Notes under the pieces: model-generated | Databases searched by the model: none | What the model saw: the letters and a program-made list of their open reading frames with translations, nothing else | What the model was told of the DNA's origin: nothing | Position numbers and translations under genes: made by a program | Shown here: positions 2,527 to 15,736 of the stretch, in pieces | How positions within the stretch are numbered: the first letter of the stretch is position 1 | Layout of the letters: each line of letters opens with the position of its first letter | Assembly: GCA_011089965.1 (NCBI GenBank) | Contig: JAANAU010000030.1 | Location: forward strand, 1-40,272 | Direction: 5' to 3' | Origin: Magnetococcales bacterium | Lineage (GTDB): Bacteria; Pseudomonadota; Magnetococcia; Magnetococcales; Magnetaquicoccaceae | DNA length: 40,272 nucleotides

Positions 2527-3312
2527 TCAGTGCTGTACCTGGTCGCGCCGCATTTGCAGATAGGCATCCCGCAAGGCGATATAAGGATCAATGGCCGCCT
2601 TTTTCAGATCTTCATATTCCCCCAAACGCATGGAGGTCTGATTGACCACCTTGCCACCATAGATCTCCGCACGGGTCCAGGGATTCTCCGGAACGTAGCT
2701 CAAAGGATTGAGTGCCGCATCGGCAACCAGCCCGAACGAATCTCGCAACGTGGATGGTCCCAGAATCGGCCACTGGATGTAGATGGCATCATCCATGCCC
2801 AAAGTGGCCAGGGTCTGTCCGAGATCCTCATCGCTGCTCTTGAGGTTGAAATGGGTTTCGGCCACATCAAAAAATCCCAGTCCGCCCAGAATGGTGTTGA
2901 TGCCAAAACGGGTCAACTCCACACCGGCAGCCTCCATTTTGCCTTGCAGCAAGGCGCTCAGGAAATGTTTTGGCATGGCCAGATTGTGGAAGAAATTCCC
3001 GAAGGCGATCCGTACCGGTTCCGGGAGTATGAAGGCGTAGAGTTCGGTCACAGGCTTGAGGAGGCCGTGATAAAACAGATCGTTGAGCGTAAAAACAATA
3101 CGATTCCACGGCTCCAGAGGATCGGAAACCACCGGACCATCGCTCTCCTCCACAAGATCGGCCCTGGGCAGATCTTTGATGCCAGCACCACCATCCACTG
3201 CCGCCATGCGGGCACCAGGGGTCTCATGACGGCCCGGGTCGCTGGCAGCAGCAGACCACCCCGGCAGCCACAAAAAGGCCCATGTCATCAGGATTGCAAG
3301 AAGTTTACGCAT
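2527..3312 (-). CDS. mlaA: MlaA-family outer-membrane lipid asymmetry protein
   Basis: This is the MlaA/VacJ outer-membrane component, which removes phospholipids from the outer leaflet and hands them to periplasmic MlaC. Family features are DPLEPWNRIVFTLND at about residues 68-82, RIAFGNFFHNL, and DLGQTLATLG with the GPSTLRD segment. I place the start at the ATG at 3312, which opens a hydrophobic signal sequence (MRKLLAILMTWAFLWLPGWS), giving 261 residues; an upstream in-frame start at 3366 would add an implausible charged leader. Classical MlaA is a lipoprotein, but no lipobox cysteine is visible here: the signal ends in SAAAS. The gene is divergent from mlaEFDC, separated by 131 bp that must hold both promoters, which supports a shared Mla function. 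Confidence 0.93.
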   Translation of the reverse strand: MRKLLAILMTWAFLWLPGWSAAASDPGRHETPGARMAAVDGGAGIKDLPRADLVEESDGPVVSDPLEPWNRIVFTLNDLFYHGLLKPVTELYAFILPEPVRIAFGNFFHNLAMPKHFLSALLQGKMEAAGVELTRFGINTILGGLGFFDVAETHFNLKSSDEDLGQTLATLGMDDAIYIQWPILGPSTLRDSFGLVADAALNPLSYVPENPWTRAEIYGGKVVNQTSMRLGEYEDLKKAAIDPYIALRDAYLQMRRDQVQH

Positions 3313-3443
3313 TGTCGGAATCCATGCTCGGGTTGTTTTCTTTAATCGGTCATCTTCCCTTGCCAATCCTCCCGATGATCGGTGATAATCTTCGGGTTTG
3401 CAACAAGTTTAAAAAAATTTACACATTTTGAGAGGTTCTGGCC

Positions 3444-4253
3444 GTGATTGACCGGCTGAATCCTTCACGAAAGACAACGCGGATGGTCGATTTGCTGCAA
3501 CATATGGGTGCCAGAACTCTGGGCCTGCTCCAGGAGATGGGACGCATGTTCCTGTTTCTTCTGGAGGTGCTTGCGGCCATTCCCGTGCCACCGTATCGCT
3601 GGACCCTGTTTTTGCGTCAGGTCCATTTCATCGGCATTCGTTCGTTGTTTGTCATTGCCCTGACCGCCCTGTTTGCCGGCATGGTACTGGGGTTGCAGGG
3701 GTATTATACATTGTCGCGCTTTGGTTCCGAGGCCATGCTGGGACCGGCTGTGGCCTTGTCCATCATTCGCGAGTTGGGACCGGTGTTGTCCGGATTGATG
3801 GTGACCGGGCGGGCCGGCTCTGCCTTGACCGCCGAATTGGGGATCATGCGCATTCGCGAGCAGATCGATGCCCTGGAGGTGATGGGGATCGCTCCGCTCA
3901 AATACCTGATCGTGCCACGTTTGACCGCTGGTCTGTTGGTCTTGCCGCTTTTGACCGCCCTGTTTGACGTGATCGGCATCTGGGGTGGCTATCTGGTGGC
4001 CGTACGGCTGCTGGGGCTGAGCGGCGGCACCTATTTCGGCGGCATCGAATCGGCTGTCGAAATGCATGATATCATCACCGGCTTGATCAAATCGTTCAGT
4101 TTTGGTGTGATCATCATCTGGATCTGCACCTACCAGGGCTATTATACCCGCCGTGGTGCCGAAGGGGTCAGCCATGCCACCACCTCGGCAGTGGTGATGA
4201 GTTCGGTGTTGATTCTGGTGTGGGACTATTTCATTACCTCCATTATGTTGTAA
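3444..4253 (+). CDS. mlaE: MlaE-family ABC permease
   Basis: This is the inner-membrane permease of the Mla phospholipid transport system, 269 residues, with about five or six hydrophobic segments. The family signature ELGIMRIREQIDALEVMGI is present at about residues 131-149, along with the GPVLSGLMVTGRAGSA segment before it. A GTG start at 3444 follows an AGAGG ribosome site. It begins a tight plus-strand operon: mlaF starts 12 bp after its stop, followed by mlaD and mlaC. Confidence 0.96.
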   Translation: MIDRLNPSRKTTRMVDLLQHMGARTLGLLQEMGRMFLFLLEVLAAIPVPPYRWTLFLRQVHFIGIRSLFVIALTALFAGMVLGLQGYYTLSRFGSEAMLGPAVALSIIRELGPVLSGLMVTGRAGSALTAELGIMRIREQIDALEVMGIAPLKYLIVPRLTAGLLVLPLLTALFDVIGIWGGYLVAVRLLGLSGGTYFGGIESAVEMHDIITGLIKSFSFGVIIIWICTYQGYYTRRGAEGVSHATTSAVVMSSVLILVWDYFITSIML

Positions 4254-4265
4254 GGAAGGCGTATC

Positions 4266-5255
4266 GTGTCAGCCACCTTGCCATTGGGTGAGCAGCTGGT
4301 CGCCAATGGTTGCATCACCGCCCGCCAACTCGATCTGGCCTTGCAGCGGCAGCGTGCCACCTCGGCGGACCCGACCACCAGCGCCCATCTGGTGGGGCGC
4401 ACCCTGGTCGAAATGGGCTATCTGACCCAACCGGCCCTGCATGAGTGTCTGTATCGGCAATTCGCTGCCGAGCGTGACCACTATTTGGACAACCCGGCTG
4501 TGGCACCGGTGATCCGTTTCGAGCGGGTGGTCAAGATCCTCGATGGTCGGCGGGTGCTGGATGCCGTGGATCTGGCCATTCCGGCCAATCGCGTCACAGC
4601 CATCATCGGCATGAGCGGTGGGGGCAAGAGTGTGTTGCTCAAGCACATGGTGGGTCTGATGAAGCCGGATCAGGGCACGGTCCGGGTGGGAGAGGAGCGG
4701 TTGGACGCCATGTCCGGACGGGCCTTGCGGCAGGTGCGGGGTCGTTTCAGTCTGTTGTTCCAGGGGGGGGCGCTGTTCGACTCCTTGAACGTCTACGACA
4801 ATGTGGCCTTTCCCTTGCGAGAGAAGAGTCAACTTACCGAAGAACAGATTCGTGGGCGTGTGCTTCGGTGTCTGGCCGAGGTCAATCTGATCGGCATGGA
4901 GCGCAAATTCCCGGATGAGTTGAGCGGCGGCATGATGAAACGTGCAGCCCTGGCCCGGGCACTGGTCACGGAACCCGAGATCCTGTTGCTGGATGAACCC
5001 ACGGCAGGTCTGGATCCGATCATTGAAAATGCGATCCACTATCTCATTTGCGACACCTTCATGCGCACCCGTTATACCATGGTCGTGATCAGCCATGCTG
5101 TACCGGAGATCTTTCAATGGTGTCACCATGTGATCGCCCTGCATCGGGGCAAGGTGCTCTATTCCGGCCCCTCCCGGGAGGTGGACGCCTCGCCGGATCC
5201 GGTTTTGCGTCAGTTCATACGGGGCGAACTTGACGGTCCCATTCAGGTGATTTAA
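4266..5255 (+). CDS. mlaF: MlaF-type ABC ATPase with GspE/MshEN-like N-terminal domain
   Basis: This is the ATPase of the Mla transporter. The ABC domain occupies about residues 82-320, with Walker A GMSGGGKS at 115-122, signature LSGGMMKR and Walker B LLLDEPTAGLD. Ordinary MlaF is about 270 residues; this one has 329. The extra ~75 N-terminal residues carry two similar helical motifs (LGEQLVANGCITARQLDLAL and VGRTLVEMGYLTQPALHECL). This LGE-L--G-(I/L)T---L--AL pattern is typical of the N-terminal domain of type II secretion/type IV pilus ATPases (MshEN/T2SSE_N), some of which bind c-di-GMP. The fusion suggests regulated lipid transport, which is inference. GTG start at 4266 after an AAGGAAGG ribosome site; same operon as mlaE. 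Confidence 0.93.
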   Translation: MSATLPLGEQLVANGCITARQLDLALQRQRATSADPTTSAHLVGRTLVEMGYLTQPALHECLYRQFAAERDHYLDNPAVAPVIRFERVVKILDGRRVLDAVDLAIPANRVTAIIGMSGGGKSVLLKHMVGLMKPDQGTVRVGEERLDAMSGRALRQVRGRFSLLFQGGALFDSLNVYDNVAFPLREKSQLTEEQIRGRVLRCLAEVNLIGMERKFPDELSGGMMKRAALARALVTEPEILLLDEPTAGLDPIIENAIHYLICDTFMRTRYTMVVISHAVPEIFQWCHHVIALHRGKVLYSGPSREVDASPDPVLRQFIRGELDGPIQVI

Positions 5256-5279
5256 CGGCATGTCTCCAGGGAGGTTCAG

Positions 5280-5729
5280 GTGAGAAGCGCCCGTTTGGAA
5301 GTTGCGGTGGGTCTGTTCGTATTGGCCGGGTTGTTGGCCTTGGCCTGGTTGTCGGTGCGGCTGGCGCGCATGGAGCTGGTGGGCAGCGGCCTTGTGCCCC
5401 TGTATGCCCAGTTCACCTCGATTGCTGGCCTGAAGGTCGGGGCAGCCGTGGAGATCGCTGGCGTGGGCGTGGGGCGGGTGGATCGCATCGAACTCAATCC
5501 CGCCGATTACGAGGCGCGGGTGCGCATGCTGGTGCAGCCCGAGGTGGCTGTGCAGGAGGATGCCATTGCCTCGGTGCGTACCAAAGGGTTGATCGGAGAT
5601 CGCTACATCGTGATCGCACCGGGTGCCTCCGACAAGATCCTGGTCGCCAATGGGGTCATTCGTCAGACCGAACCGGCCATCAACTTTGAAGAGTTGATCA
5701 GTCAGTTCATTCATGGCAGTGTCAAATAG
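5280..5729 (+). CDS. mlaD: MlaD-family MCE-domain substrate-binding protein
   Basis: This periplasmic, membrane-anchored MCE protein forms the hexameric ring that carries lipid between MlaC and the MlaE permease. One N-terminal transmembrane helix (about residues 8-25) is followed by a single MCE domain with GLKVGAAVEIAGVGVGRV at about residues 48-65. GTG start at 5280 just after a GGGAGG site; 149 residues, the usual size. It sits 24 bp after mlaF and 29 bp before mlaC. Confidence 0.95.
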   Translation: MRSARLEVAVGLFVLAGLLALAWLSVRLARMELVGSGLVPLYAQFTSIAGLKVGAAVEIAGVGVGRVDRIELNPADYEARVRMLVQPEVAVQEDAIASVRTKGLIGDRYIVIAPGASDKILVANGVIRQTEPAINFEELISQFIHGSVK

Positions 5730-5758
5730 TCTTGGCATGTTTTTGAGGAGTGGATGCG

Positions 5759-6391
5759 ATGTTGCGGCGTTTGATCGTCAACCGGTTGTTTTTCTGGATC
5801 GTATTGTTGGCCCCTCTGTCGGTATGGAGTGTGACCGTGGCTCAGGAGGGGGGGCGCATGGGCAAGCTGGCCGCTTCGGTCCAGCAGGCCATTCAGATCC
5901 TCAAGGATCCGGAGTTGGCCGTGCCTGCGCGGCGCGAAGAGCGCCGGGAGATGTTGCGGCGGGTCATCTACCAGGAGTTCGATTTTCCCCGCATGTCGCA
6001 GAGTGCGGTGGGGCGGGCCTGGAACAAATTCACACCCGGCCAGCAGCAACGATTTTCCGATCTGTTTCGCCGGTTGCTGGAAAACACCTACATGAGTGTG
6101 ATCGAGCGGTATGACGGAGAGCGGGTGGAGTTTGTCAAGGAGGTGCCCAAGGCCGATGACCTGGTGTTGGTGGACAGCGTCGTCTATGCCAAGGGGCAGC
6201 AGTATCGTTTGTCCTATTACATGCGCAGCACCAAGGCGGGTTGGAAGGTGGATGATGTGGTCATCGAGGGGGTGAGTGTGGTGGCCAACTACCGTTCTCA
6301 GTTTCAACAGGCCATTCGTACGCCAGAGGATATCGAACCGTTGTTGGCCCGTTTGAAGGAAAAGGTGGAGACCTCCCAGAAGGGGAGTTGA
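5759..6391 (+). CDS. mlaC: MlaC/Ttg2D-family periplasmic phospholipid carrier
   Basis: This is the soluble lipid shuttle between the outer-membrane MlaA complex and MlaD. A signal peptide occupies about residues 1-30 (FFWIVLLAPLSVWSV...). The mature domain shows the family pattern FDFPRMSQSAVGRAWNKFTP, the FSDLFRRLLENTY helix and WKVDDVVIEGVSVVANYRSQF near the end. I prefer the ATG at 5759, 8 nt after GAGGAG, to a GTG at 5750 inside that site; 210 residues. It is the last mla gene; no STAS-domain MlaB gene follows. The NTPase gene starts only 31 bp later and may be read through from this operon. Confidence 0.95.
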   Translation: MLRRLIVNRLFFWIVLLAPLSVWSVTVAQEGGRMGKLAASVQQAIQILKDPELAVPARREERREMLRRVIYQEFDFPRMSQSAVGRAWNKFTPGQQQRFSDLFRRLLENTYMSVIERYDGERVEFVKEVPKADDLVLVDSVVYAKGQQYRLSYYMRSTKAGWKVDDVVIEGVSVVANYRSQFQQAIRTPEDIEPLLARLKEKVETSQKGS

Positions 6392-6422: not shown

Positions 6423-7757
6423 ATGCGTGTCAATCATGCCGATTATTGGGAGGTTGCGGTCAATCTCGATCCCAATGTGCCGTTGGACACCGGGACCATG
6501 GATCTGTATGTGGACACCTCCGAAGCACGGGGTGATGTCACTCAGGATGATCTGCTGCGTGCCCTGGGGATCGATGCCACCCAAACCCTGCGCCGCCCCA
6601 TGGAACGGCAATACATCCTCTTCACCAGCCATCTGGGAGGGGGGAAAAGTACGGAGTTGCGGCGTTTGAGTCAGTTGTTGCATGATCCGCAACGCTATTT
6701 CGTGGTCTTTGTCGATGCGGTCGAACAGCTCAATCCCAATAATCTCCACGACACCGATATTCTGCTCAAGCAGGCCGATTTGCTCTGCGCCATGTTGGCC
6801 GGGCAGGGGGTGATGATCGATGACGTCCATCTGTACACCCTGAAGGAGTGGTTCAAACAGCGGATCATCGTGCGTCTGAACGAGCGCGCCTCCTCTCTGG
6901 AGTTGACCGCAGGTCTGGAGGCCAAGGCTGGAATAGGCTGGTTGGGGGGACTCTTCGCCAAACTCACCAGCGCCGTCAAGTTCGGGACCACCTTTCGGGA
7001 AGAGATCCGCTCGGAAACCAAAAATCACCTGGAAGAGTTTGCTGCCGGATTCAACCAGTTGATTCGTGCGGCCAATGCAGCGTTGCAGCGTCAGCAGTTG
7101 GGACAGCGGGTGCTGTTCATGGTCGATGGCACGGATCGCATGCCCTATGCGGACATGGAGCGGTTTTTCGTCACCGATTTTTCCGAGCTGCAACGCATCG
7201 AGGCCACTTTCATCTACTGCACCCAGGTCCATCTGCTCTATCAGCACAATTTCCTGCAACAGCGGTTTCACTACATTCATCGGGTGCCCATGCTGAAAAT
7301 CCACCAGCGCGGGTCGGATGATTTCTGGCCCCCTGCTCTGGAGACCATGCGCGCCATGGTGTACAAGCGTGTGGCTCCCTCTCTGTTCGACAGTGAGGAG
7401 ACGGTGGATTATCTCATTCGTTACTCCGGGGGCCATCCTCGTGATCTGGTGCGCCTGCTGGAGCTGACGCGCATCAAAACACGCAGCGAGATCTTCACCA
7501 GAGAGGCGGCGGAAAAGGCGGTGCGCGATATGGCTGCCGACTTCCTGCGCTTTTTGCAAGGCAAGGATTATGATCTCCTGGTCAGGATCGATTCCCAGGA
7601 TGCACAGAACACCCAGGAGGCGGAAGAAGGGACTCACAAACTGCTCCATACCCTGGCCCTCCTGGAATACAACAATCTGTGGTGGCGTTCGCATCCTTTG
7701 GTGCGCACCCTGCCCGGCTACCAGAAGCGGATGCATTCAACCCATGTCGCCGGATGA
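6423..7757 (+). CDS. P-loop NTPase (KAP/STAND-like), first gene of an overlapping pair
   Basis: This is a 444-residue predicted cytoplasmic P-loop NTPase. A Walker A-like SHLGGGKST lies at residues 69-77, with Ser replacing the usual first Gly, and a Walker B-like VLFMVDGTDRM at 230-240. A Gly-rich, weakly hydrophobic stretch at about 168-185 (AGIGWLGGLFAKLTSAV) lies between them, as in KAP-like NTPases where an insert sits between Walker A and B. Around residues 335-345, YSGGHPRDLVRLLE resembles the sensor-2/winged-helix region of AAA+/STAND ATPases (GG-PR). I do not recognise a named family. Its last 14 bases overlap the next gene, which implies translational coupling. The biochemical partner and trigger are unknown. 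Confidence 0.85.
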   Translation: MRVNHADYWEVAVNLDPNVPLDTGTMDLYVDTSEARGDVTQDDLLRALGIDATQTLRRPMERQYILFTSHLGGGKSTELRRLSQLLHDPQRYFVVFVDAVEQLNPNNLHDTDILLKQADLLCAMLAGQGVMIDDVHLYTLKEWFKQRIIVRLNERASSLELTAGLEAKAGIGWLGGLFAKLTSAVKFGTTFREEIRSETKNHLEEFAAGFNQLIRAANAALQRQQLGQRVLFMVDGTDRMPYADMERFFVTDFSELQRIEATFIYCTQVHLLYQHNFLQQRFHYIHRVPMLKIHQRGSDDFWPPALETMRAMVYKRVAPSLFDSEETVDYLIRYSGGHPRDLVRLLELTRIKTRSEIFTREAAEKAVRDMAADFLRFLQGKDYDLLVRIDSQDAQNTQEAEEGTHKLLHTLALLEYNNLWWRSHPLVRTLPGYQKRMHSTHVAG

Positions 7758-8694
7758 TCAGGCGATCCATGACGAGGGGAGTGTTGAGGTTAGAAACTTT
7801 GTCCTGTGGAGTGCCTCCCTGCTGGAGTTGGAGACGCTGTTGCGGGGGGTCCACCGTTTCAAACTGGTTTTCATGGAATATGATATTTCTGAAGTGCAAG
7901 TGCAAGTGCAGGTGATGGCCAGGCTGCATGTCATGGGCTTGCCTCCCGGACAGAGGGTGGAGATGGCCCCGGAGTGGGAGGAGCTGCACCCTTTGGCACG
8001 CGCCCTGGAAGCTCTGCCGTCCGGAGGCGTGGTCCATCTGATGGGCCTGGGTGACTGGTTGCGGGGCGGGGAGCGTGGGCAGCGGTTCGGCATGCTCAAC
8101 ATGGCGCGGGAGTGGCTGGGAAATTCTTGTTCCCACTCCCCGTTATTGGTGTGGGTCAAATCGGGGGATTTGAATGATTTCCCGCGTCTGGCCCCGGATT
8201 TTTGGGCCTGGCGCAGCGCGGTTTTTTCATTTTTGCCTGTCAGGATCCCTGTGCATGTTGGTCCGATGCTGGGATCTATAATAATAGATGATCCATCGCG
8301 AGATGTAACCAAAAGGAAGCTTCGTATCGCTGAAATTACCAGATATTTACAAAATCATCCCGAACTCAATCCCGCTTCCGTCCATCTGGTGCTGGAAAAG
8401 GGGGGCCTCCTGATGGAGTTGGGTGAGCTGGATTCTGCCGGGCAGGCGGTGTTGGTTGCGGAGCGGTATTTCAAGAGCATCGATGATCCTTTGGGACAGG
8501 GGGTGGCCAAATGTCTGTTGGCAGCCATCCTTGATCAGCGCCAGGAGTTCGATCAGGCGTTGCACATTTTGCAGCACGAGGTTGCGCCGGTTTTTGAACG
8601 GTTTGGGGAGGTGGAGTTGATTGAGGAGATTCGTGCAGCCGTCAAGCACAGAGAGGCCATTCAGTCCAGCAGGTCAGAGAGCGAATCGGCCTGA
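7744..8694 (+). CDS. TPR protein with degenerate NTPase-like N-terminal region, partner of the NTPase
   Basis: The ATG at 7744 lies inside the end of the preceding NTPase gene, giving 316 residues. Residues about 15-165 look like an inactive P-loop-type alpha/beta domain: alternating strands (KLVFMEYDI, VVHLMGLGDWL, PLLVWVKSG) and then DFPRLAPDFWAWRSAVFSF. I recall this APDFW-WRS-VF motif from TPR proteins linked to STAND-type NTPases, a recollection that needs checking. No Walker A is visible. Residues about 185-300 form two or three helical TPR-like repeats (LVLEKGGLLMELGELDSAGQ; KCLLAAILDQRQEFDQALHI). The obligate pairing suggests a sensor or adaptor for the NTPase. The 3' end overlaps the convergent nuclease gene by 34 bp. 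Confidence 0.8.
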   Translation: MSPDDQAIHDEGSVEVRNFVLWSASLLELETLLRGVHRFKLVFMEYDISEVQVQVQVMARLHVMGLPPGQRVEMAPEWEELHPLARALEALPSGGVVHLMGLGDWLRGGERGQRFGMLNMAREWLGNSCSHSPLLVWVKSGDLNDFPRLAPDFWAWRSAVFSFLPVRIPVHVGPMLGSIIIDDPSRDVTKRKLRIAEITRYLQNHPELNPASVHLVLEKGGLLMELGELDSAGQAVLVAERYFKSIDDPLGQGVAKCLLAAILDQRQEFDQALHILQHEVAPVFERFGEVELIEEIRAAVKHREAIQSSRSESESA

Positions 8695-9596
8695 AAGAGG
8701 TGACCAAGCCAGGTGGTCAGTTGTTCCAGAGTGGCGGATGTCACCTGGTGTTGCATCGATTCAGGCACGGGTCCGAAACGGGCGGTCAGAAGTTGCAGCA
8801 GGGTTTCGGCTTTGCCCTCCTGTCTGCCCTCCTGTCTGCCTCTTTTTTCCCCCTCGATCAAACCCAGGCCATAGGTGGAGGCCACCATGCTGGCCTGGAA
8901 GTGCAGATCCTCCTGATAGCGTTCGTAGGCCTGCCGTTCCGGTTCAGGCAGATGCATGATGTCGAACAGCTCCTTGGCCTTGCGCAATCCCCGTGCCGTG
9001 AACTCCTCGCGGATCTCACCGGTTTTGAGAAAATAGATCCACTCATCCAAAGTGGTGCGTGCCACCAGATCAAACCGGTTCACCTTGAGCAGATAGTACT
9101 CGGGAAAAATTTCTGGCACGCTCTGGCGGTGAAACAGACTCTTTTGACCTTCGTTGAGCTGCAACAGGTCATGGGTGTGCAATCCGGTGAACACGGTGGT
9201 TCCATGATAGATGTAATCATTGCCCGTGCCGAGATCAAAATACAAGATGCTGATTGAAATGATTTTTGGAACGTTGAGGTAGGCATCCCCTGTGTTGAGA
9301 TGTTCCGTGATGGTTTTGGAGGTGGCATAGAGCAGACGTTGCAGATAGTCATGCTCCCGTTCGTATTGCAACTCGATCAGAATCAGCTCGCCCTGGCTGT
9401 TTCTGACCTTCATGTCCACGCGGTTGTATTTGTCCAGTACCGACTCCTTGTTGCTTTCGCTCTCCAGGATTTCGATGATCTGCACATCGGTCATGAGCAA
9501 CTCGCTCAACAGCCCTTCCAGCACGTCGAAATTGGCCTTGCTGCGCAACAGCCGTTTGAGTGCCCAGTCAAAACTGATCAGTCGGCGCTGTTTCAT
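8661..9596 (-). CDS. Rpn-family PD-(D/E)XK nuclease (putative transposase)
   Basis: This is a member of the Rpn/PDDEXK_2 family, predicted DNA endonucleases formerly called putative transposases. The N-terminus ISFDWALKRLLRSKANFDVLEGLL is typical, and the active-site region reads VDMKVRNSQGELILIELQYE (Asp, then the E-x-Q of the E-x-(K/Q) motif). A C-terminal GEKRGRQEGRQEGKAE repeat, also usual in the family, precedes a helical tail. ATG start at 9596, 311 residues; an in-frame TTG at 9632 is less likely. It is convergent with the NTPase/TPR pair and overlaps it by 34 bp. Such genes are mobile and often multicopy, and this is probably a lineage-specific insertion. Confidence 0.9.
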   Translation of the reverse strand: MKQRRLISFDWALKRLLRSKANFDVLEGLLSELLMTDVQIIEILESESNKESVLDKYNRVDMKVRNSQGELILIELQYEREHDYLQRLLYATSKTITEHLNTGDAYLNVPKIISISILYFDLGTGNDYIYHGTTVFTGLHTHDLLQLNEGQKSLFHRQSVPEIFPEYYLLKVNRFDLVARTTLDEWIYFLKTGEIREEFTARGLRKAKELFDIMHLPEPERQAYERYQEDLHFQASMVASTYGLGLIEGEKRGRQEGRQEGKAETLLQLLTARFGPVPESMQHQVTSATLEQLTTWLGHLFQADSLSDLLD

Positions 9597-9658
9597 CGGA
9601 AGCCATTCCCAAAAGAGGAGTGTTGCATCCAATCATAGGCCAGCACCACCCAAAAATA

Positions 9659-9695: not shown

Positions 9696-10028
9696 TCACT
9701 CCACCTTCAGCTCGACCTTCTCTTTCCACTCCTGACCCTTGTTGTCCTTCCAGGTCACGGTGACCGGTCCCGGCTTGTCAGCCTTGACATAAAACGAAAA
9801 GAAGGGATTCTTGGACACAGCCCCGGTCCAACTCGCCTTGACCACCATTGCGCCACCATATTCCGCTGTCACACTTTCGATGTAGTGAGCCGGAACAGTC
9901 TCGCCGGTTGCTGCATCCTTGCGCAACCCGCTCTCCATGGGATGCTTGATCAAAGTCTTGATGAGCGCCAACTCCCCTTTTTTGACCTTTTCCGGGGCGC
10001 GCACTTTGGGTTCTCCGATATCCGCCAT
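9696..10028 (-). CDS. soxZ: SoxZ, thiosulfate-oxidation carrier subunit
   Basis: SoxZ pairs with SoxY to form the periplasmic carrier on which sulfur intermediates ride. The 110-residue protein has the family pattern: KVKKGELALIKTLIKHPMESG near the start, GAVSKNPFFSFYVKA in the centre, and a C-terminal VTVTWKDNKGQEW. No signal peptide is seen, as expected because SoxZ is exported together with the Tat substrate SoxY. ATG at 10028 with GGAG 6 nt upstream. It follows soxY by 36 bp. Confidence 0.95.
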   Translation of the reverse strand: MADIGEPKVRAPEKVKKGELALIKTLIKHPMESGLRKDAATGETVPAHYIESVTAEYGGAMVVKASWTGAVSKNPFFSFYVKADKPGPVTVTWKDNKGQEWKEKVELKVE

Positions 10029-10064
10029 GATTCTCTCCAAACGTTGAACGTTGTCTTGATCCGA

Positions 10065-10553
10065 TTAACCAGCGCAACCGCCTTCGGCCACTTCAATCTT
10101 CATGACCGCACCATACAATTTGCCCTTGTTGGTCTTGGCAATGGCACGCACCTGCGAGGCTTTGGCCATTTTGATACGCATCTCCACCTCGGCCTTGCCC
10201 GATGCCGGGGTGAACTCGAATTTGCCCACCAAAGGCTTGGGATTGTCATCCACGAAAATCGCAATGGCTGCGATGTAGTTGTCCGGCTCCATGGGATGAT
10301 CGACCGAGACCGGGAAACGCACCAAAGCACCGTTTTCCGCCTTGGGTGGGGTGTCGATCTTCACCTTTTCCAGGGCCACTGTGCCTGCGCCCAACTCCTT
10401 GGCAATGATCTCATCCATATTGACAGCCGCCTCGGCAGCCTCGGCCAACGACGGCATGCCGACCACACCAATGGCCGCACACGCCACACCCGTGGCGCCA
10501 ACCGCCACCAGAAAGCTTCTGCGCGTCAGTGTGGTTTCAGAATGGATACTCAT
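10065..10553 (-). CDS. soxY: SoxY, thiosulfate-oxidation sulfur carrier
   Basis: SoxY binds sulfur covalently through a cysteine on a mobile C-terminal arm. Here the arm ends in VAEGGCAG, the equivalent of the usual GGCGG. The N-terminus carries a Tat signal (LTRRSFLVAVGATGVA). The start is the ATG at 10553, 8 nt after GGAGG; 162 residues. It is followed by soxZ and preceded by the tetraheme cytochrome gene. SoxB, SoxAX and SoxCD are not in the window, so the carrier may serve a truncated Sox pathway or genes located elsewhere. Confidence 0.96.
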   Translation of the reverse strand: MSIHSETTLTRRSFLVAVGATGVACAAIGVVGMPSLAEAAEAAVNMDEIIAKELGAGTVALEKVKIDTPPKAENGALVRFPVSVDHPMEPDNYIAAIAIFVDDNPKPLVGKFEFTPASGKAEVEMRIKMAKASQVRAIAKTNKGKLYGAVMKIEVAEGGCAG

Positions 10554-10605
10554 GGGTGATGCCTCCAGATTCGTTGATTGCGTAGATGTGGAACAACGGT
10601 TCAGA

Positions 10606-11202
10606 TTACTGTTGGGTTGCCGGGGCTTCCGGCTCCTCCGGCATTTTGTGGGCGACACCGGTGTGACAATCGATACAGGTCTTGTCCTGGCTTTCCATGG
10701 CCTTCTTGTGCTTCTTGGAGGCCGACTTGTCCTGTTCGTCCAGTTGCATGGCATCGTAGTTGTGACAGGCACGGCACTCCTTGGAGTCCCGTTCCTTCAG
10801 GGTCTTGATCACATTCTGCGCAAGATCCCAACGCTTCTTCTCGAAGGACTCTTTGTCCGGGAATGTCCCGATCATGTGATGGTAAATGTCTTTGCTGCCG
10901 ATTTCTAACTTGGCCAGAAACTTGTCGATCCAATCCCCGAAGGTCTTGCCGTGGGGCACATGACAATCCGCACAATAGGCCCGCACACCCATGCGGTTCG
11001 TGTAGTGCTTGCTCTCCTTGTACTCCTGGTACACCCCTTCCATTTCATGACAGGAGATGCAGATGCTCATGGCATTGGTCGCGTTCATCGTAAAGTGAAA
11101 CACGATGAAAAAGATCGATCCGGCCAAAAAACCAACCAATAAAATCAGGCCAATGGCCTTCTGACTGGGGGTGCGAAGCCATTTCAAAAGATTTGCGATC
11201 AT
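10606..11202 (-). CDS. NapC/NirT-type tetraheme cytochrome c
   Basis: This is a membrane-anchored multiheme cytochrome. One N-terminal transmembrane helix (about residues 16-37) precedes a periplasmic domain with four heme motifs: CISCH, CADCH, CRACH and CIDCH. Size (198 residues) and layout match the NapC/NirT quinol dehydrogenase family, which passes electrons between the quinone pool and periplasmic partners. It begins a unit with soxY 52 bp downstream. A quinone-linked cytochrome immediately upstream of soxYZ is unusual, and its partner is unknown; it could take electrons from sulfur oxidation or supply them to another periplasmic enzyme. Confidence 0.93.
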   Translation of the reverse strand: MIANLLKWLRTPSQKAIGLILLVGFLAGSIFFIVFHFTMNATNAMSICISCHEMEGVYQEYKESKHYTNRMGVRAYCADCHVPHGKTFGDWIDKFLAKLEIGSKDIYHHMIGTFPDKESFEKKRWDLAQNVIKTLKERDSKECRACHNYDAMQLDEQDKSASKKHKKAMESQDKTCIDCHTGVAHKMPEEPEAPATQQ

Positions 11203-11339
11203 GGTAGCCGGTTCTCCGCTTGAAGATTGGGAAATTTTGGCAGGCTTTGGCCCTCTACCAAAGCACTGGCGCGCTGTTGATCATGCGCACAATAAGCACA
11301 TTCCAGGTGGTGTGCAAGGAATATTTCAATGTGTGTAAA

Positions 11340-11765
11340 TCATTGCAGACTTTTAAGATAGGTGATCAGATCCTTGCGATTGGCAGAACTGTCCATGCCC
11401 TCAAAGGCCACCGGGTGATCCTTGGTCTGTTGGGACATTTTGGTTTTCGGGATAAAGGCCAAAGGATTGGCCAGCCACCGGTCCAGGTGGTCGTCATCCC
11501 ACAAAAACGGGTGCTCTTCCACCAGTTGACGAAACGATGCGCTGAACGAAAAATCCACCACACCTGCCGGACGTTTGTAGATCTCCCACAGGTAGGGGCC
11601 TTTGCCATTTTTGCGTTTGGCGGTCATGTCGTGACACACCCCGCAATTGTTTTCGGCCAGTCGTTTTCCCACCTCCGCATCACCCCGGAAACGTTGGAAA
11701 CCGATTCCGGCCAACAGCACCAGCAACAGGAGCATGATCAAAGACAGCACATGGGCGATTTTCAT
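11340..11765 (-). CDS. Monoheme class I cytochrome c
   Basis: This is a small periplasmic or membrane-tethered cytochrome of 141 residues. An uncleaved or cleaved N-terminal hydrophobic helix (LSLIMLLLLVLLAGIGF) is followed by one heme motif CGVCH at about residues 41-45 and a likely Met axial ligand in KTKMSQQTKDHP. The layout resembles cytochrome c2/c552 electron shuttles. Its start codon overlaps the stop of the diguanylate cyclase gene (4 bp, ATGA), so the two are translationally coupled. It probably carries electrons from the sulfur enzymes to a terminal oxidase, which is inference from context. Confidence 0.92.
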   Translation of the reverse strand: MKIAHVLSLIMLLLLVLLAGIGFQRFRGDAEVGKRLAENNCGVCHDMTAKRKNGKGPYLWEIYKRPAGVVDFSFSASFRQLVEEHPFLWDDDHLDRWLANPLAFIPKTKMSQQTKDHPVAFEGMDSSANRKDLITYLKSLQ

Positions 11766-13609
11766 CGGGTTTCATGCCCTCCTTCGGCATCCATGGATGG
11801 ATGATACTTCCGAAAGTGATTGCGGCCCCCCTTTTTGACGGCATACAAGGCGGTATCGGCCTTTTTCAGGAGTTCTTCGGCCTGTTCCCCATCCCCGGGG
11901 TAGATGCTGATGCCGATGCTGGTGCCAATCTGACACAGATGGTCATGCAGCTGAAAGGGCACCAGCAACGCATCGATGATTTTTTGCGCCACCACGCCGA
12001 CCGAGTCAGGCACCAGGGTTTCATCACCCAGGATCACGGTGAATTCATCTCCTCCCAGACGGGCCACCACATCATTTTCGCGCAGACAGCCGCGAATCCG
12101 TTCTGCGGCCTCGACCAGCAACAGATCACCCACATCATGGCCATAGGTGTCATTCACCGCCTTGAACCGGTCCAGATCCAGAAACATTACGGCCATGGCC
12201 CGGTTGTGGCGTCGGCTGCGCGCCAGGGTCTGTTGCAGAAACAGCATGAAGAGACGACGATTCGGCAATCCTGTCAAGGCATCGTGATGTGCAATCCGTT
12301 CCAGACGTTTTTCCGCCAGCACGCGTTCGGTCACATCGATTCCGGTGGCCAGAAAATTTTTGACCACTCCGGCTGCATCCAGCAGAAAACTCAGGGTCCA
12401 GGAGATGTGACGCACCTCCCCGGAACGGGTCAGCCAGCGCCCTTCAAAGGAGACGATGGCTGGTTCATCATTGGTCAAGGTCAGGATCTCATGTATGCGT
12501 TCCTGTTCGTCTTGCGGGCACCAGGCTGGATCCCAGAAGGGCGATCCGATCATGGCATGGGGGGGCAAACCGGTCAATGCCTCGCAGGCTCCGTTGATCC
12601 GCACCAGACGGCCTTGACGATCCAGGACCGCCACCAGAGCCGAGGCGCTCTCCAGAATCGTGGCAATGAACTGACGCTCTTCCTGCAACGCTTTTTCCGT
12701 GCGGCGATGGCGGATGATGCCGGCCAGGGTATTGGCCAGGGTGGCGAGCAAGGCATCTTCGTCTGACGAGCGGGGATGATTGGCGGAAACGTAGAGGTTC
12801 AACACGCCCAGCAACTCACCCTGGTACAGAATCGGGGTGCAGTAGTGGCCGTGGGGTTTGATCCCCGGAAAGGTCACCGCATGGTCGGCATCCAGATTAT
12901 TTTTGAAAACAATTTCTTTTGTCAAACCCGCCTGGCCGCACAAACAGTGACCCAGTGGCAAGGCGGCACAAGCAGTCAGCAGATGAGGCGCAAGATTGCG
13001 ATGGGCTGCCAGATCCAGACGGTTGGTTTCGGGATTGAACAGATGGATCGATCCTTTGTACTCCACGGCCAGCCAGGGAATGGTCAGGATGATATCCAGG
13101 GCCACCGAGAGTTGCCGTTCCAGGGTCAACGGTTCCAGCGATGTTTCCAAAAGGCCGCTGATGGCCAGTCTGGATTGGGTGGCTTTGATTTCCCGTGTCT
13201 TTTCCAAAGACAGTGCCTGTTCGGCCTGCAACCGGTCCAGGTGGCTGCGGATGCGTGCCCGGATCACTGCCGGACGGAAGGGTTTGCCGAAGTAGTCCAG
13301 CGCACCCAGTGCCATGCCCCGGTTGACATCTTCGGCTTCGGTTTTGGCGGTGACGAAGATCACGCCGATGGTGCGGGTTTTGGGTTGTGCTTTCAGGCGT
13401 CGGCACACCTCGAAGCCATCCATGCCGGGCATCATGATGTCCAACAGAATGAGGTCCGGCTGCCAGGAGAGAGCGAGTTCCAATGCTTTCTGACCATTAT
13501 CCGCCTGGAGTACGTCGTAATCCTGGGTCAGAAGTTCAGACAGCAGGGCGAGATTGATGGGAACATCATCGACGATGAGGATCTTTTCCTGTTTGACTTT
13601 GGTGGTCAT
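11762..13609 (-). CDS. Response regulator diguanylate cyclase (REC-GAF-PAS-GGDEF)
   Basis: This is a 615-residue cytoplasmic signalling protein. Domains in order are REC (about 9-125, acidic pair DD14-15, phospho-acceptor D57 in LLLDIMMPGMDG, conserved K in GKPF); GAF (about 165-310); PAS (about 320-435); GGDEF (about 445-605). The active site reads GGDEF and is preceded by the inhibitory I-site REND five residues upstream, so cyclic di-GMP synthesis with product inhibition is expected. No EAL domain is present. The gene overlaps the cytochrome c gene by 4 bp and lies between the fcc and sox genes. No partner histidine kinase is adjacent. Confidence 0.94.
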   Translation of the reverse strand: MTTKVKQEKILIVDDVPINLALLSELLTQDYDVLQADNGQKALELALSWQPDLILLDIMMPGMDGFEVCRRLKAQPKTRTIGVIFVTAKTEAEDVNRGMALGALDYFGKPFRPAVIRARIRSHLDRLQAEQALSLEKTREIKATQSRLAISGLLETSLEPLTLERQLSVALDIILTIPWLAVEYKGSIHLFNPETNRLDLAAHRNLAPHLLTACAALPLGHCLCGQAGLTKEIVFKNNLDADHAVTFPGIKPHGHYCTPILYQGELLGVLNLYVSANHPRSSDEDALLATLANTLAGIIRHRRTEKALQEERQFIATILESASALVAVLDRQGRLVRINGACEALTGLPPHAMIGSPFWDPAWCPQDEQERIHEILTLTNDEPAIVSFEGRWLTRSGEVRHISWTLSFLLDAAGVVKNFLATGIDVTERVLAEKRLERIAHHDALTGLPNRRLFMLFLQQTLARSRRHNRAMAVMFLDLDRFKAVNDTYGHDVGDLLLVEAAERIRGCLRENDVVARLGGDEFTVILGDETLVPDSVGVVAQKIIDALLVPFQLHDHLCQIGTSIGISIYPGDGEQAEELLKKADTALYAVKKGGRNHFRKYHPSMDAEGGHETR

Positions 13610-13653
13610 GAGGTGCCCTGTCGCTCACGTGTCGGGTTGGTCTGGATGTGCGA

Positions 13654-13678
13654 AAAGCGGGGCTGATCGCCCCGCTTT
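13654..13678 (-). terminator. Intrinsic terminator after fccB
   Basis: A perfect 10-bp stem (AAAGCGGGGC / GCCCCGCTTT) with a 5-nt loop lies 30 bp beyond the fccB stop. On the minus strand it is followed by TTTTCG. It separates the DUF302-fccAB transcript from the cyclase-cytochrome unit. Confidence 0.8.
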
Positions 13679-13707
13679 CCAGGTCTCACTGCACTTGTGG
13701 TGGCAAC

Positions 13708-14988
13708 TCAACTGAATGTATCGGCCATGATGCTCTGATACCAGCTTTCGTTGTAGAGGGCTTCCTGCTTGCGGATGAAATCCTGGGCCTTGTCCGAGGA
13801 GACGCCGCCAGACACTTCGACGATCTTGCCAGCGTTCAGTTTGTAGACACCTGCCACCGAGATGCCGTAATCCGGGCTGATCAGGCTGTAGCAGGTATTG
13901 ACGTAGGAGGGTATGCCCACCGGTTTGCCGTTCAGAAGGTTCACCACGGCTGCGGCACACACTTTGGCTTCGGAGTTGGCGGCATAGCCCGATTTCGGCA
14001 GGCCGGTGGCCGCACTGGCATCGCCGATGACGTGAATGTTTTTCTGTTTGGTCGATTCAAAGGTCTCGAAATTGATCGGGCAGAAACCCTTTTCGTCGGT
14101 CAGGCCGGCTTTTTCAGCGATGTCACCGGCCTTGTTGGGCGGAATGATGTTGATGCAGGAGCTTTTGAATTCGGCCATGTCGGTATAGACGGTCATGGTC
14201 TTGGCATCCACGCGGGTCACCTTGCCGCCCTGGGCACCGGGCACCCATTCGATCAGGCTGTTGGGCGTATCGTAGCCATAGAGTTTTTTCCAACCGCCGG
14301 TGAACAGGCCCATCTTGGAGAATTTATCCTTGGGATCCAGGATGATCACCTTGGATTTGGGTTTGTTCTTTTTCAGATAGTGCGCCACCAGGCTGGCCCG
14401 TTCGTAGGGTCCGGGCGGGCAGCGGTAGGGATCCGGCGGGGCCACCATCACGAAGGGGTCGCCATCCTTCATTTCGGCGAGCTGTTTGGTCAGCAGAGAG
14501 GTTTGTTCACCGGCGATCCAGGCATGGGGCATTTTTTTCATGGCTTCGGCATCATACCCTTCCAGGGCCTTGAAGCCGATACCCGGCGACATGATCAGAC
14601 GGTCATACTCGAACTTCTTGCCCCCTGCCGTGGTCACGCTTTTGGCTGCCGGATCCACACCGGTCACGCTGTCGATCACCACCTCGATACCGTATTTCTT
14701 GAGACCCTCATAGCCCCATTTCTGGACTTCCAGCTTGCGGAATCCGGCCACCACCCAGTTGGAGAGCGGTCCCGAGTAGTAATCCTTGTTCTGTTCGATC
14801 AGGGTGACCTGAATGTTGGGATCGGCCATGCGAATATATTTGGCCGCCACCGATCCGCCATATCCACCTCCCACCACCACCACCCGTTTTTTGGCATTCG
14901 CCAAAGAAAGGCTCGGGGGTGTAACCAGACCGAGCGCAGCCATACTGCCGGTCAGCTTGACAAAACCTCTGCGTGTGCAATTGATCAT
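13708..14988 (-). CDS. fccB: Flavocytochrome c sulfide dehydrogenase, flavoprotein subunit
   Basis: FccB (SoxF-like) is the FAD-containing subunit that oxidises sulfide in the periplasm and passes electrons to the FccA cytochrome. A Tat signal (TRRGFVKLTGSMAALGL) is followed by the dinucleotide-binding motif VVVVGGGYGGSVAAKY. Two conserved cysteines that form the redox disulfide in this family are visible in YRCPPGPYER and EKGFCPIN. The C-terminal FCSD flavin-binding region includes VYKLNAGKIVEVSGGVSS. I prefer the ATG at 14988, 9 nt after GAGGGAG; ATGs at 14994 and 15006 are in frame. 426 residues. It follows fccA by 25 bp. Confidence 0.96.
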   Translation of the reverse strand: MINCTRRGFVKLTGSMAALGLVTPPSLSLANAKKRVVVVGGGYGGSVAAKYIRMADPNIQVTLIEQNKDYYSGPLSNWVVAGFRKLEVQKWGYEGLKKYGIEVVIDSVTGVDPAAKSVTTAGGKKFEYDRLIMSPGIGFKALEGYDAEAMKKMPHAWIAGEQTSLLTKQLAEMKDGDPFVMVAPPDPYRCPPGPYERASLVAHYLKKNKPKSKVIILDPKDKFSKMGLFTGGWKKLYGYDTPNSLIEWVPGAQGGKVTRVDAKTMTVYTDMAEFKSSCINIIPPNKAGDIAEKAGLTDEKGFCPINFETFESTKQKNIHVIGDASAATGLPKSGYAANSEAKVCAAAVVNLLNGKPVGIPSYVNTCYSLISPDYGISVAGVYKLNAGKIVEVSGGVSSDKAQDFIRKQEALYNESWYQSIMADTFS

Positions 14989-15013
14989 CGTCATGGTCTC
15001 CCTCATACCCCGT

Positions 15014-15736
15014 TTAGCGCTTGCTGGCATAGAAATGGGCGGCATCTTCCAACTCTTGAGCAGAGAGTTTGCCAATGGCCTTTTCCATCTTTTCCGGCTG
15101 AGGTATTTTCAGTTCGGCATTTTTCAGATCCTGCATTTTGATCAGCAGGTAATCCACCCATTGACCGGCCATGCGCGGGGTATCCTCATCCTGGGTCAGG
15201 CCATCGTCTTCATGGCATTTGCCGCATTTCTGGGCTTCGACCACTTTTTTCCCTTTTTTGGCTTTGGCGTCATCGATTTTTGTGGCCATGACCGAGTTGG
15301 CGTGGGATTTGACCGTTTCCCATTTTTGTTTGGACAGATATTCGGCGATGCGTGCGGTTTCAGCCTCGGTATATCCTTTGGCGATCCGACCCATGATGGT
15401 GGATGGACGTTTGCCGCTCTTGAAGTCTGCCATGATGCCTTCCAGATATTTGGCGGGCATACTGGCAATCGAGGGCATGCTGGGGCCAGCCGATACACCG
15501 TTCGTGCCATGGCATCCGGCGCACGTATTGGCGAGCATGGCTGCTTCTGCCGGTGGTGCGGCGATGGCTTCTGCAATCGCTTTTTCCTTGGCTGCCTTCT
15601 CTGCGTCGGCTGCCGAGGGGGCCGCTGCTGCCGGGGCTGCTGCCGGGGCATCTGCTGCCAGCAGAGGATTCATCCAGGCCAATGCGCCCAGCAATCCACC
15701 TGCGACCACCAACATCTGGATTTTTTTTCGTTGCAT
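15014..15736 (-). CDS. fccA: Flavocytochrome c sulfide dehydrogenase, diheme cytochrome subunit
   Basis: This is the periplasmic c-type cytochrome partner of FccB. A signal peptide (QMLVVAGGLLGALAWMNPLLA) precedes an Ala/Glu-rich spacer (about residues 28-65), then two class I cytochrome folds with heme motifs CAGCH and CGKCH and Met ligands in SMPSIASMP and RMAGQW. ATG at 15736 with GGAGGG 4 nt upstream; 240 residues. The long Ala-rich spacer is unlike compact FccA proteins and may act as a flexible arm. Adjacent fccB strongly supports the assignment. Confidence 0.92.
   Translation of the reverse strand: MQRKKIQMLVVAGGLLGALAWMNPLLAADAPAAAPAAAAPSAADAEKAAKEKAIAEAIAAPPAEAAMLANTCAGCHGTNGVSAGPSMPSIASMPAKYLEGIMADFKSGKRPSTIMGRIAKGYTEAETARIAEYLSKQKWETVKSHANSVMATKIDDAKAKKGKKVVEAQKCGKCHEDDGLTQDEDTPRMAGQWVDYLLIKMQDLKNAELKIPQPEKMEKAIGKLSAQELEDAAHFYASKR

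Follow-up and report, generated by a model that had tools for sequence, protein, structure and literature searches.

The window, that is, the whole stretch of 40,272 nucleotides that was analysed, carries the genes mlaE, mlaF, mlaD and mlaC in a row at 3444-6391 of the plus strand. The features to which the text refers are as follows.

2527..3366, minus strand: mlaA, divergent neighbour (Pfam MlaA, 4e-63)
3444..4253, plus strand: mlaE, permease gene immediately 5' of mlaF (Pfam MlaE, 6.6e-84)
4266..5255, plus strand: mlaF, 329-aa ATPase with an MshEN_N-like and an ABC domain (GTG start; stop codon at 5253-5255)
4275..4469, plus strand: MshEN_N-like domain, residues about 4-68 (profile-PDB matches, hhalign, AlphaFold2, Foldseek, VIA-align)
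4281..4352, plus strand: motif I, residues 6-29, P-L-G-xx-L-V-xx-G-C-I-xxxx-L-xxx-L-xx-Q (motif of PMC5013675 mapped on the alignment)
4353..4388, plus strand: inter-motif spacer, 12 residues (alignment of 36 proteins)
4389..4460, plus strand: motif II, residues 42-65, L-V-G-xx-L-V-xx-G-Y-L-xxxx-L-xxx-L-xx-Q (motif mapped on the alignment)
4461..4505, plus strand: last part of helix 4, then the junction with the ABC domain (E69 in 36/36, Y73 in 34/36)
4506..5252, plus strand: ABC (NBD) domain, residues 81-329 (Pfam ABC_tran at 98-247, E 3e-29)
5280..5729, plus strand: mlaD (Pfam MlaD, 1.1e-19; NCBIfam OM_asym_MlaD, over its cut-off)
5750..6391, plus strand: mlaC, with no mlaB after it (Pfam MlaC, 9.8e-48)
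11762..13609, minus strand: REC-GAF-PAS-GGDEF gene, diguanylate cyclase candidate, loosely linked (Pfam)

The ATPase of the window is MlaF, as its ABC part is closest to MlaF and it is encoded together with mlaE, mlaD and mlaC. The closest solved chains for the ABC part were those of MlaF/Ttg2A (E 5.7e-55), and the best model for the protein was the NCBIfam MlaF model, with 200 bits, which is below the model cut-off of 441. A Shine-Dalgarno-like sequence, AAGGAAGG (4252-4259), lies upstream of the mlaF GTG and overlaps the stop codon of mlaE. Approximately 75-80 residues of the protein stand N-terminal to the ABC domain. The arrangement of mlaA and mlaE-F-D was kept in 16/16 extended loci and mlaC in 15/16, the contig of the remaining locus ending early. 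The MlaC of the window matched the hopanoid-associated HpnM model (1.8e-27, below cut-off) better than the NCBIfam MlaC model (4.2e-8). A second MlaE-type permease is encoded in the same genome at C30:43976-45593, and its adjoining ABC partner had no match to the MshEN part of MlaF.

In the earlier note on this DNA, a GspE/MshEN-like domain with two helical motifs had been proposed for the roughly 75 residues that precede the ABC domain. The relationship of this stretch to the MshE-type N-terminal domain was borne out by profile-PDB comparison and hhalign, and the top Foldseek matches were of the same family; the MshEN_N subdomain is there, and the MshEN_C subdomain is absent. When the single window sequence was compared with the PDB, its best matches, to PilF, PilB and MshE, were weak (E 0.007 to 0.33). 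The profile of 36 relatives matched PilF at 8.3e-23 (several stretches), MshE at 1.3e-12 and PilB at 2.5e-12; the 14 PDB chains of this same family (PilF, MshE, PilB) had E values from 8.3e-23 to 1e-4, and the next match, which was unrelated, had 0.38. Comparison by hhalign with 16 true MshEN domains from Magnetococcales gave a probability of 99.1 and an E value of 6.6e-19. These reference domains were selected from the 35 MshEN loci scanned by a regular expression demanding part of motif I; therefore, motif I counts among them are favoured. The aligned set of 36 proteins excluded three domain-less proteins and the split protein of G006, and one of its rows (L032) begins at the edge of a contig and has no start codon. 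Pfam PF05157 had no match at E<=10 in the window or in the family table of 36 members, nor any at E<=1 at the mlaF N-terminus when the bacterium's own genome was scanned, and no curated family in the Pfam and NCBIfam scans named the domain. DUF4388 had matches in 23/36 members, but these were weak (best 0.003), and in the window the match covered only residues 6-40, mainly motif I. From the profile comparisons, it was confirmed that the N-terminal domain of the window MlaF is an MshEN_N relative.

Structure prediction had been proposed in the earlier note as a check, as an alternative to HHpred. The AlphaFold2 model of the domain, which was of middling quality (pLDDT 75, pTM 0.56), contained helices in the expected order at residues 7-13, 19-32, 43-50 and 55-75 and an extra short helix at 36-41 in the spacer. 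The top four Foldseek matches were c-di-GMP-bound MshE and three PilF-GSPII-B structures (probability 1.00-0.87; E 0.14-1.7, not significant alone). The VIA-align comparison, carried out within the families listed, aligned 58 residues to MshE with a Z score of 8.1, below the approximately 13 advised for helical bundles, and an rmsd of 2.2. Because the structure evidence by itself is insufficient, the identity of the domain rests on the sequence profile. The Magnetococcales MlaF consists of an MshEN_N-type domain followed by a short junction, after which the first strand of the ABC domain begins.

Both motifs resemble the published 24-residue MshEN type. In comparison with the consensus (R/K/L)LGxx(L/V/I)(L/V/I)xxG(L/V/I)(L/V/I)xxxxLxxxLxxQ, motif I of the window deviates at positions 1 (P) and 11 (C), and motif II departs at positions 2 (V) and 11 (Y), the Gly, Leu and Gln contact positions of both being otherwise kept. 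The first residue of motif I is Pro or Ser in most of the aligned proteins. The guanine-contact glycines were conserved at G8 in 36/36 and at G44 in 35/36 proteins. The hydrophobic positions were kept almost as strictly: L7 (L/I/V in 35/36), L22 (L/V/I/M in 36/36) and L26 (L in 34/36) in motif I, and V43 (I/V/L in 35/36), L58 (35/36) and L62 (36/36) in motif II. Both glycines and all positions of the hydrophobic clusters were kept in 34/36 proteins. The contact glutamines were retained less often, Q29 in 28/36 (lost in 8) and Q65 in 23/36 (lost in 13); the second Gln was lost in 6/16 true MshEN domains of the order too. The full pattern of both Gly, the hydrophobic positions and both Gln was found in 16/36 proteins, among them the window and 8/10 aligned sequences of the window's genus. 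As regards the nucleotide-contact residues on which the suggested c-di-GMP binding depended, most MshE/PilF contacts are present in the window, and one or both Gln are lost in 20/36 aligned proteins.

It was reported that the G11 and G40 variants lost binding, and in XpsE, which does not bind, the fold is kept and both Gly and several Leu positions are changed (PMC5013675). Isolated MshEN_N halves are reported to bind c-di-GMP, with values of 0.35 uM for MshE and 54 nM for PilF, and Leu at the first motif position to go with high affinity (PMC11731258); L42, the first position of motif II, is Leu in 34/36 proteins here. The inter-motif spacer has 12 residues in the window and 6-12 in the 36 proteins vs the 5 of MshE, so that the five-residue spacing is absent; the spacer joins two ligand-touching stretches, and its length counts against binding. 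The Pro that opens motif I, in place of R/K/L, and the Val at position 2 of motif II count against it too. Considering the contact pattern, the Leu at the start of motif II and the binding by isolated N-halves, c-di-GMP binding in the window's genus would be plausible, with about an even chance, and in several other genera it appears doubtful.

The survey of MlaF in relatives suggested by the earlier note revealed the fused domain in 36/39 Magnetococcales genomes with MlaF. Among 48 genomes of the order examined, 39 had an MlaF of the window type at E<=1e-60; of those with the domain, G006 has a copy that is divided between two contigs, and two copies are present in G046. In the MlaF of the other three (G020, G044 and G047), the motifs are lost and a stretch resembling the junction helix is kept, which suggests a role of its own for this helix. 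In these proteins (L050, L051 and L052), the E..Y pattern of the helix 4 end is retained just before the ABC domain. Among the nine genomes of the order without an MlaF match, G031 has just a C-terminal fragment, and no close MlaF was found in the remaining eight. In G027, G034 and G038, near-complete genomes of one family, MlaF of the window type is absent and the mla ABC transporter appears to have been lost.

When 398 Pseudomonadota genomes were searched with the MlaF profile, at least 150 rows were obtained (our count among the matches listed). Among these, the match started at profile positions 1-18 in 36 proteins of the order and at 65-66 in the three domain-less proteins, and two rows were the G006 pieces. 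The 109 rows from outside the order among the matches listed started at position 70 or later, except for two (48 and 49) that cross stop codons, and the fused domain was found in 0/109 of these MlaF-like matches from Pseudomonadota. With the domain profile alone, none of the matches listed outside the order fell within the 290-415 aa that MlaF frames of the order span; their frames were of 238 or 438-1319 aa. One entry (L123), with 71% identity over the domain, is a Magnetococcales MAG. Another (L124, Caldisericota, 32%; L124:4001-5719) was considered as an MlaF outside the order and rejected, as it is a PilB-type ATPase of 572 aa. Its MshEN motifs also appear to be separated by a long spacer; therefore, MlaF may not be the only protein with long spacers. 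Magnetococcales is an order of magnetotactic-type bacteria, and MlaF carries an extra front domain there. Within the genomes and matches listed, it was confirmed from sequence that the MshEN_N-MlaF fusion is a trait of this order, both order-wide and order-specific.

The claim that no mlaB lies beside mlaF held, although other STAS proteins are encoded elsewhere in the genome. An mlaB-like match on the mlaF contig was found in 0/39 genomes of the order (draft contigs), and the same search found a match within about 2-4 kb of MlaF, on the same contig, in G048, G049, G052 and G055. At the strict cut-off, no mlaB was found (0/61), which proves little because the plausible MlaBs beside MlaF in these four genomes also miss it; position beside mlaF was therefore applied in place of this cut-off. 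The window MlaF terminates 3 residues after GPI, without the E. coli-type C-terminal extension, and 36/36 proteins end 3 residues past GP[IV], where the E. coli protein has 17 further residues by alignment. The MlaF proteins of G048, G049 and G052, whose C-termini were read, have C-terminal tails. In E. coli, MlaF minus residues 247-269 was reported to be non-functional and to be largely rescued by forced dimerisation, and MlaB to be needed if MlaF is to remain with MlaE and MlaD; the same paper describes the function of MlaB as not well understood (PMC7367683). As read from the genomes, one regulator-stabiliser is missing from the order and a different domain has been gained. The MshEN_N-like domain may have replaced MlaB, as the earlier note had supposed. 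The idea is weakened by three members of the order (G020, G044 and G047) that retain MlaF with neither the motifs nor the C-terminal extension, and by the existence of L106, an MlaF-like ATPase without the extension and without an MshEN_N-like domain.

The diguanylate cyclase gene previously placed 7 kb away is present as a GGDEF gene 6.5 kb from the end of mlaF, and as a pointer to c-di-GMP it is weak. The 3.66 Mb draft genome contains 42 GGDEF domains, which by our own arithmetic gives a roughly 14% chance of some GGDEF domain within 6.5 kb on either side; the proximity was therefore set aside as evidence. A strong match (74-75%) to this cyclase at the same place was found in 2/16 extended loci, both of the same genus, and weaker GGDEF matches were found in four others (G024, G044, G020 and G023). 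The cyclase gene interrupts a sulfur-oxidation cluster (9696-15075, minus strand) that encodes SoxZ, SoxY, a NapC/NirT-type cytochrome, a cytochrome c and a flavocytochrome c sulfide dehydrogenase flavoprotein. Between this cluster and the mla region lies a PD-(D/E)XK transposase-family gene (8661-9632, minus strand; PF12784 with DUF4351). On the 3' side of mlaC, a P-loop protein with weak NACHT/nSTAND similarity is encoded at 6423-7757 of the plus strand, followed and overlapped by an ORF without a Pfam match (7570-8694, plus strand). In the 16 extended loci of relatives, tblastn found neither of the two next to mla.

The reading that we prefer, held at somewhat under an even chance, is that the domain is regulatory and that, within the genus of the window, c-di-GMP is most likely still bound as in MshE and PilF, so that lipid transport would be tuned. 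The domain would then be a regulatory module, of which each transporter would contain two if its architecture follows that of E. coli MlaF2E2D6. The backbone amides of G8 and G44 would contact the guanines, the leucine clusters L7-L58-L62 and L22-L26-V43 would lie under the bases, and Q29 and Q65 would reach the ribose and phosphate. Occupancy by the ligand could alter how the two N-domains pack, either together or against the ATPase, and this could tune dimerisation and ATPase activity and, through them, lipid transport; both activation and inhibition are possible. A broader proposal, according to which c-di-GMP binds MlaF and switches phospholipid transport throughout the order, and the MshEN_N pair stabilises the dimer in place of MlaB and the handshake, is considered unlikely as a whole.

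Other explanations were weighed against this reading. It is hardly credible that the similarity of this helical segment arose by chance, or that the start codon was misassigned and the region is untranslated: such an explanation would account for the weak single-sequence scores (best E 0.007) and for the miss by Pfam, but not for profile matches as low as 8e-23 that are clearly separated from unrelated proteins, the hhalign value of 6.6e-19, the conservation of the frame across 36 proteins, with purifying selection, or the Shine-Dalgarno sequence before the GTG. Because of the profile results, it is refuted in the main. The domain could also be a neutral passenger that arose by one fusion event and has been kept by inertia, without a regulatory role, although this seems improbable. 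The lengths of its N-terminal tail and spacer vary across the family, it was lost in two lineages (G020; G044 with G047), and its within-genus dN is approximately two to three and a half times that of the ABC part, all of which a passenger would explain. However, its median pairwise dN/dS was 0.26, 0.16 and 0.19 in three genera, compared with 0.10, 0.07 and 0.07 for the ABC part in the same genera (rough values because dS is near saturation), and five invariant columns and the contact Gly are conserved across 12 families of the order. To the precision that this saturation allows, the MshEN_N-like domain is under purifying selection.

A more serious competitor, which we regard as quite possible without favouring it, is that the domain is an MshEN_N relative for which the ligand is no longer needed in most or all lineages and which serves as a protein-binding or dimerisation piece. 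It would either stabilise the MlaF dimer, replacing the C-terminal handshake and MlaB, or dock a partner as in the PilB-PilZ pair of Xanthomonas. The drift of the contact Gln (28/36 and 23/36), together with the near-invariance of the helix-packing positions and of E69 and Y73 at the junction, would fit such a function. A stabilising role would suit the extension missing in 36/36 proteins, given the reported rescue of extension-less MlaF by forced dimerisation (PMC7367683), and docking has a precedent in a non-binding MshEN-type domain that serves PilZ (PMC8389850). Yet the XpsE fold is reported to survive with other residues at the guanine Gly (PMC5013675), whereas these are kept in 36/36 and 35/36 proteins here; three genomes keep MlaF without motifs and without the extension; and PilZ is described as touching PilB mainly via the C-terminal ND1 subdomain (PMC8389850), which is missing here.

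The order-wide fusion of two known parts is real as judged from the sequences, and its control by c-di-GMP would be plausible. No MlaF-MshEN or MshEN-ABC transporter fusion was found in the titles and abstract starts of the literature searched; the supplementary architectures of PMC5013675 could mention one. If the broader proposal, in which c-di-GMP switches transport throughout the order, is true, this would be the first example of an MshEN domain gating an ABC transporter, as far as the literature was searched. Lipid transport between the two membranes may be under direct second-messenger control in the order, and ABC transport would join secretion ATPases and signalling enzymes among the outputs of MshEN domains. 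A receptor-type domain naturally fused to MlaF would be a directly testable candidate regulator of Mla, and the order would provide a natural experiment in which MlaF works without MlaB and the handshake.

Among known systems, the domain most resembles MshEN_N (PF05157) of Vibrio cholerae MshE and of Thermus thermophilus PilF (GSPII-B), with which it may share the four-helix fold, as the model predicts. It has two similar 24-residue motifs, in which the Gly that contacts guanine and the leucine positions are shared, as are both Gln in most sequences of the window's genus. Unlike in MshE and PilF, it sits on an ABC ATPase rather than a secretion or pilus ATPase, MshEN_C is absent and the spacer is longer; motif I starts with Pro or Ser in most of the proteins, the Gln are lost in many relatives and the Pfam model is silent. 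The window MlaF is like E. coli MlaF (MlaFEDB) in its ABC domain, its 'LSGGM' signature and the E/F/D/C genes in a row. However, the E. coli protein has no N-terminal domain, has 17 residues past GPV (the end of the handshake extension) and has MlaB as a partner, and the window MlaF is the reverse in each respect. The N-terminal domain of Xanthomonas PilB (ND0-ND1), which binds PilZ, belongs to the same fold family and likewise provides a regulatory input on an ATPase, but in PilB the c-di-GMP motif is absent and the C-terminal subdomain is present, the opposite of what is found in the window domain.
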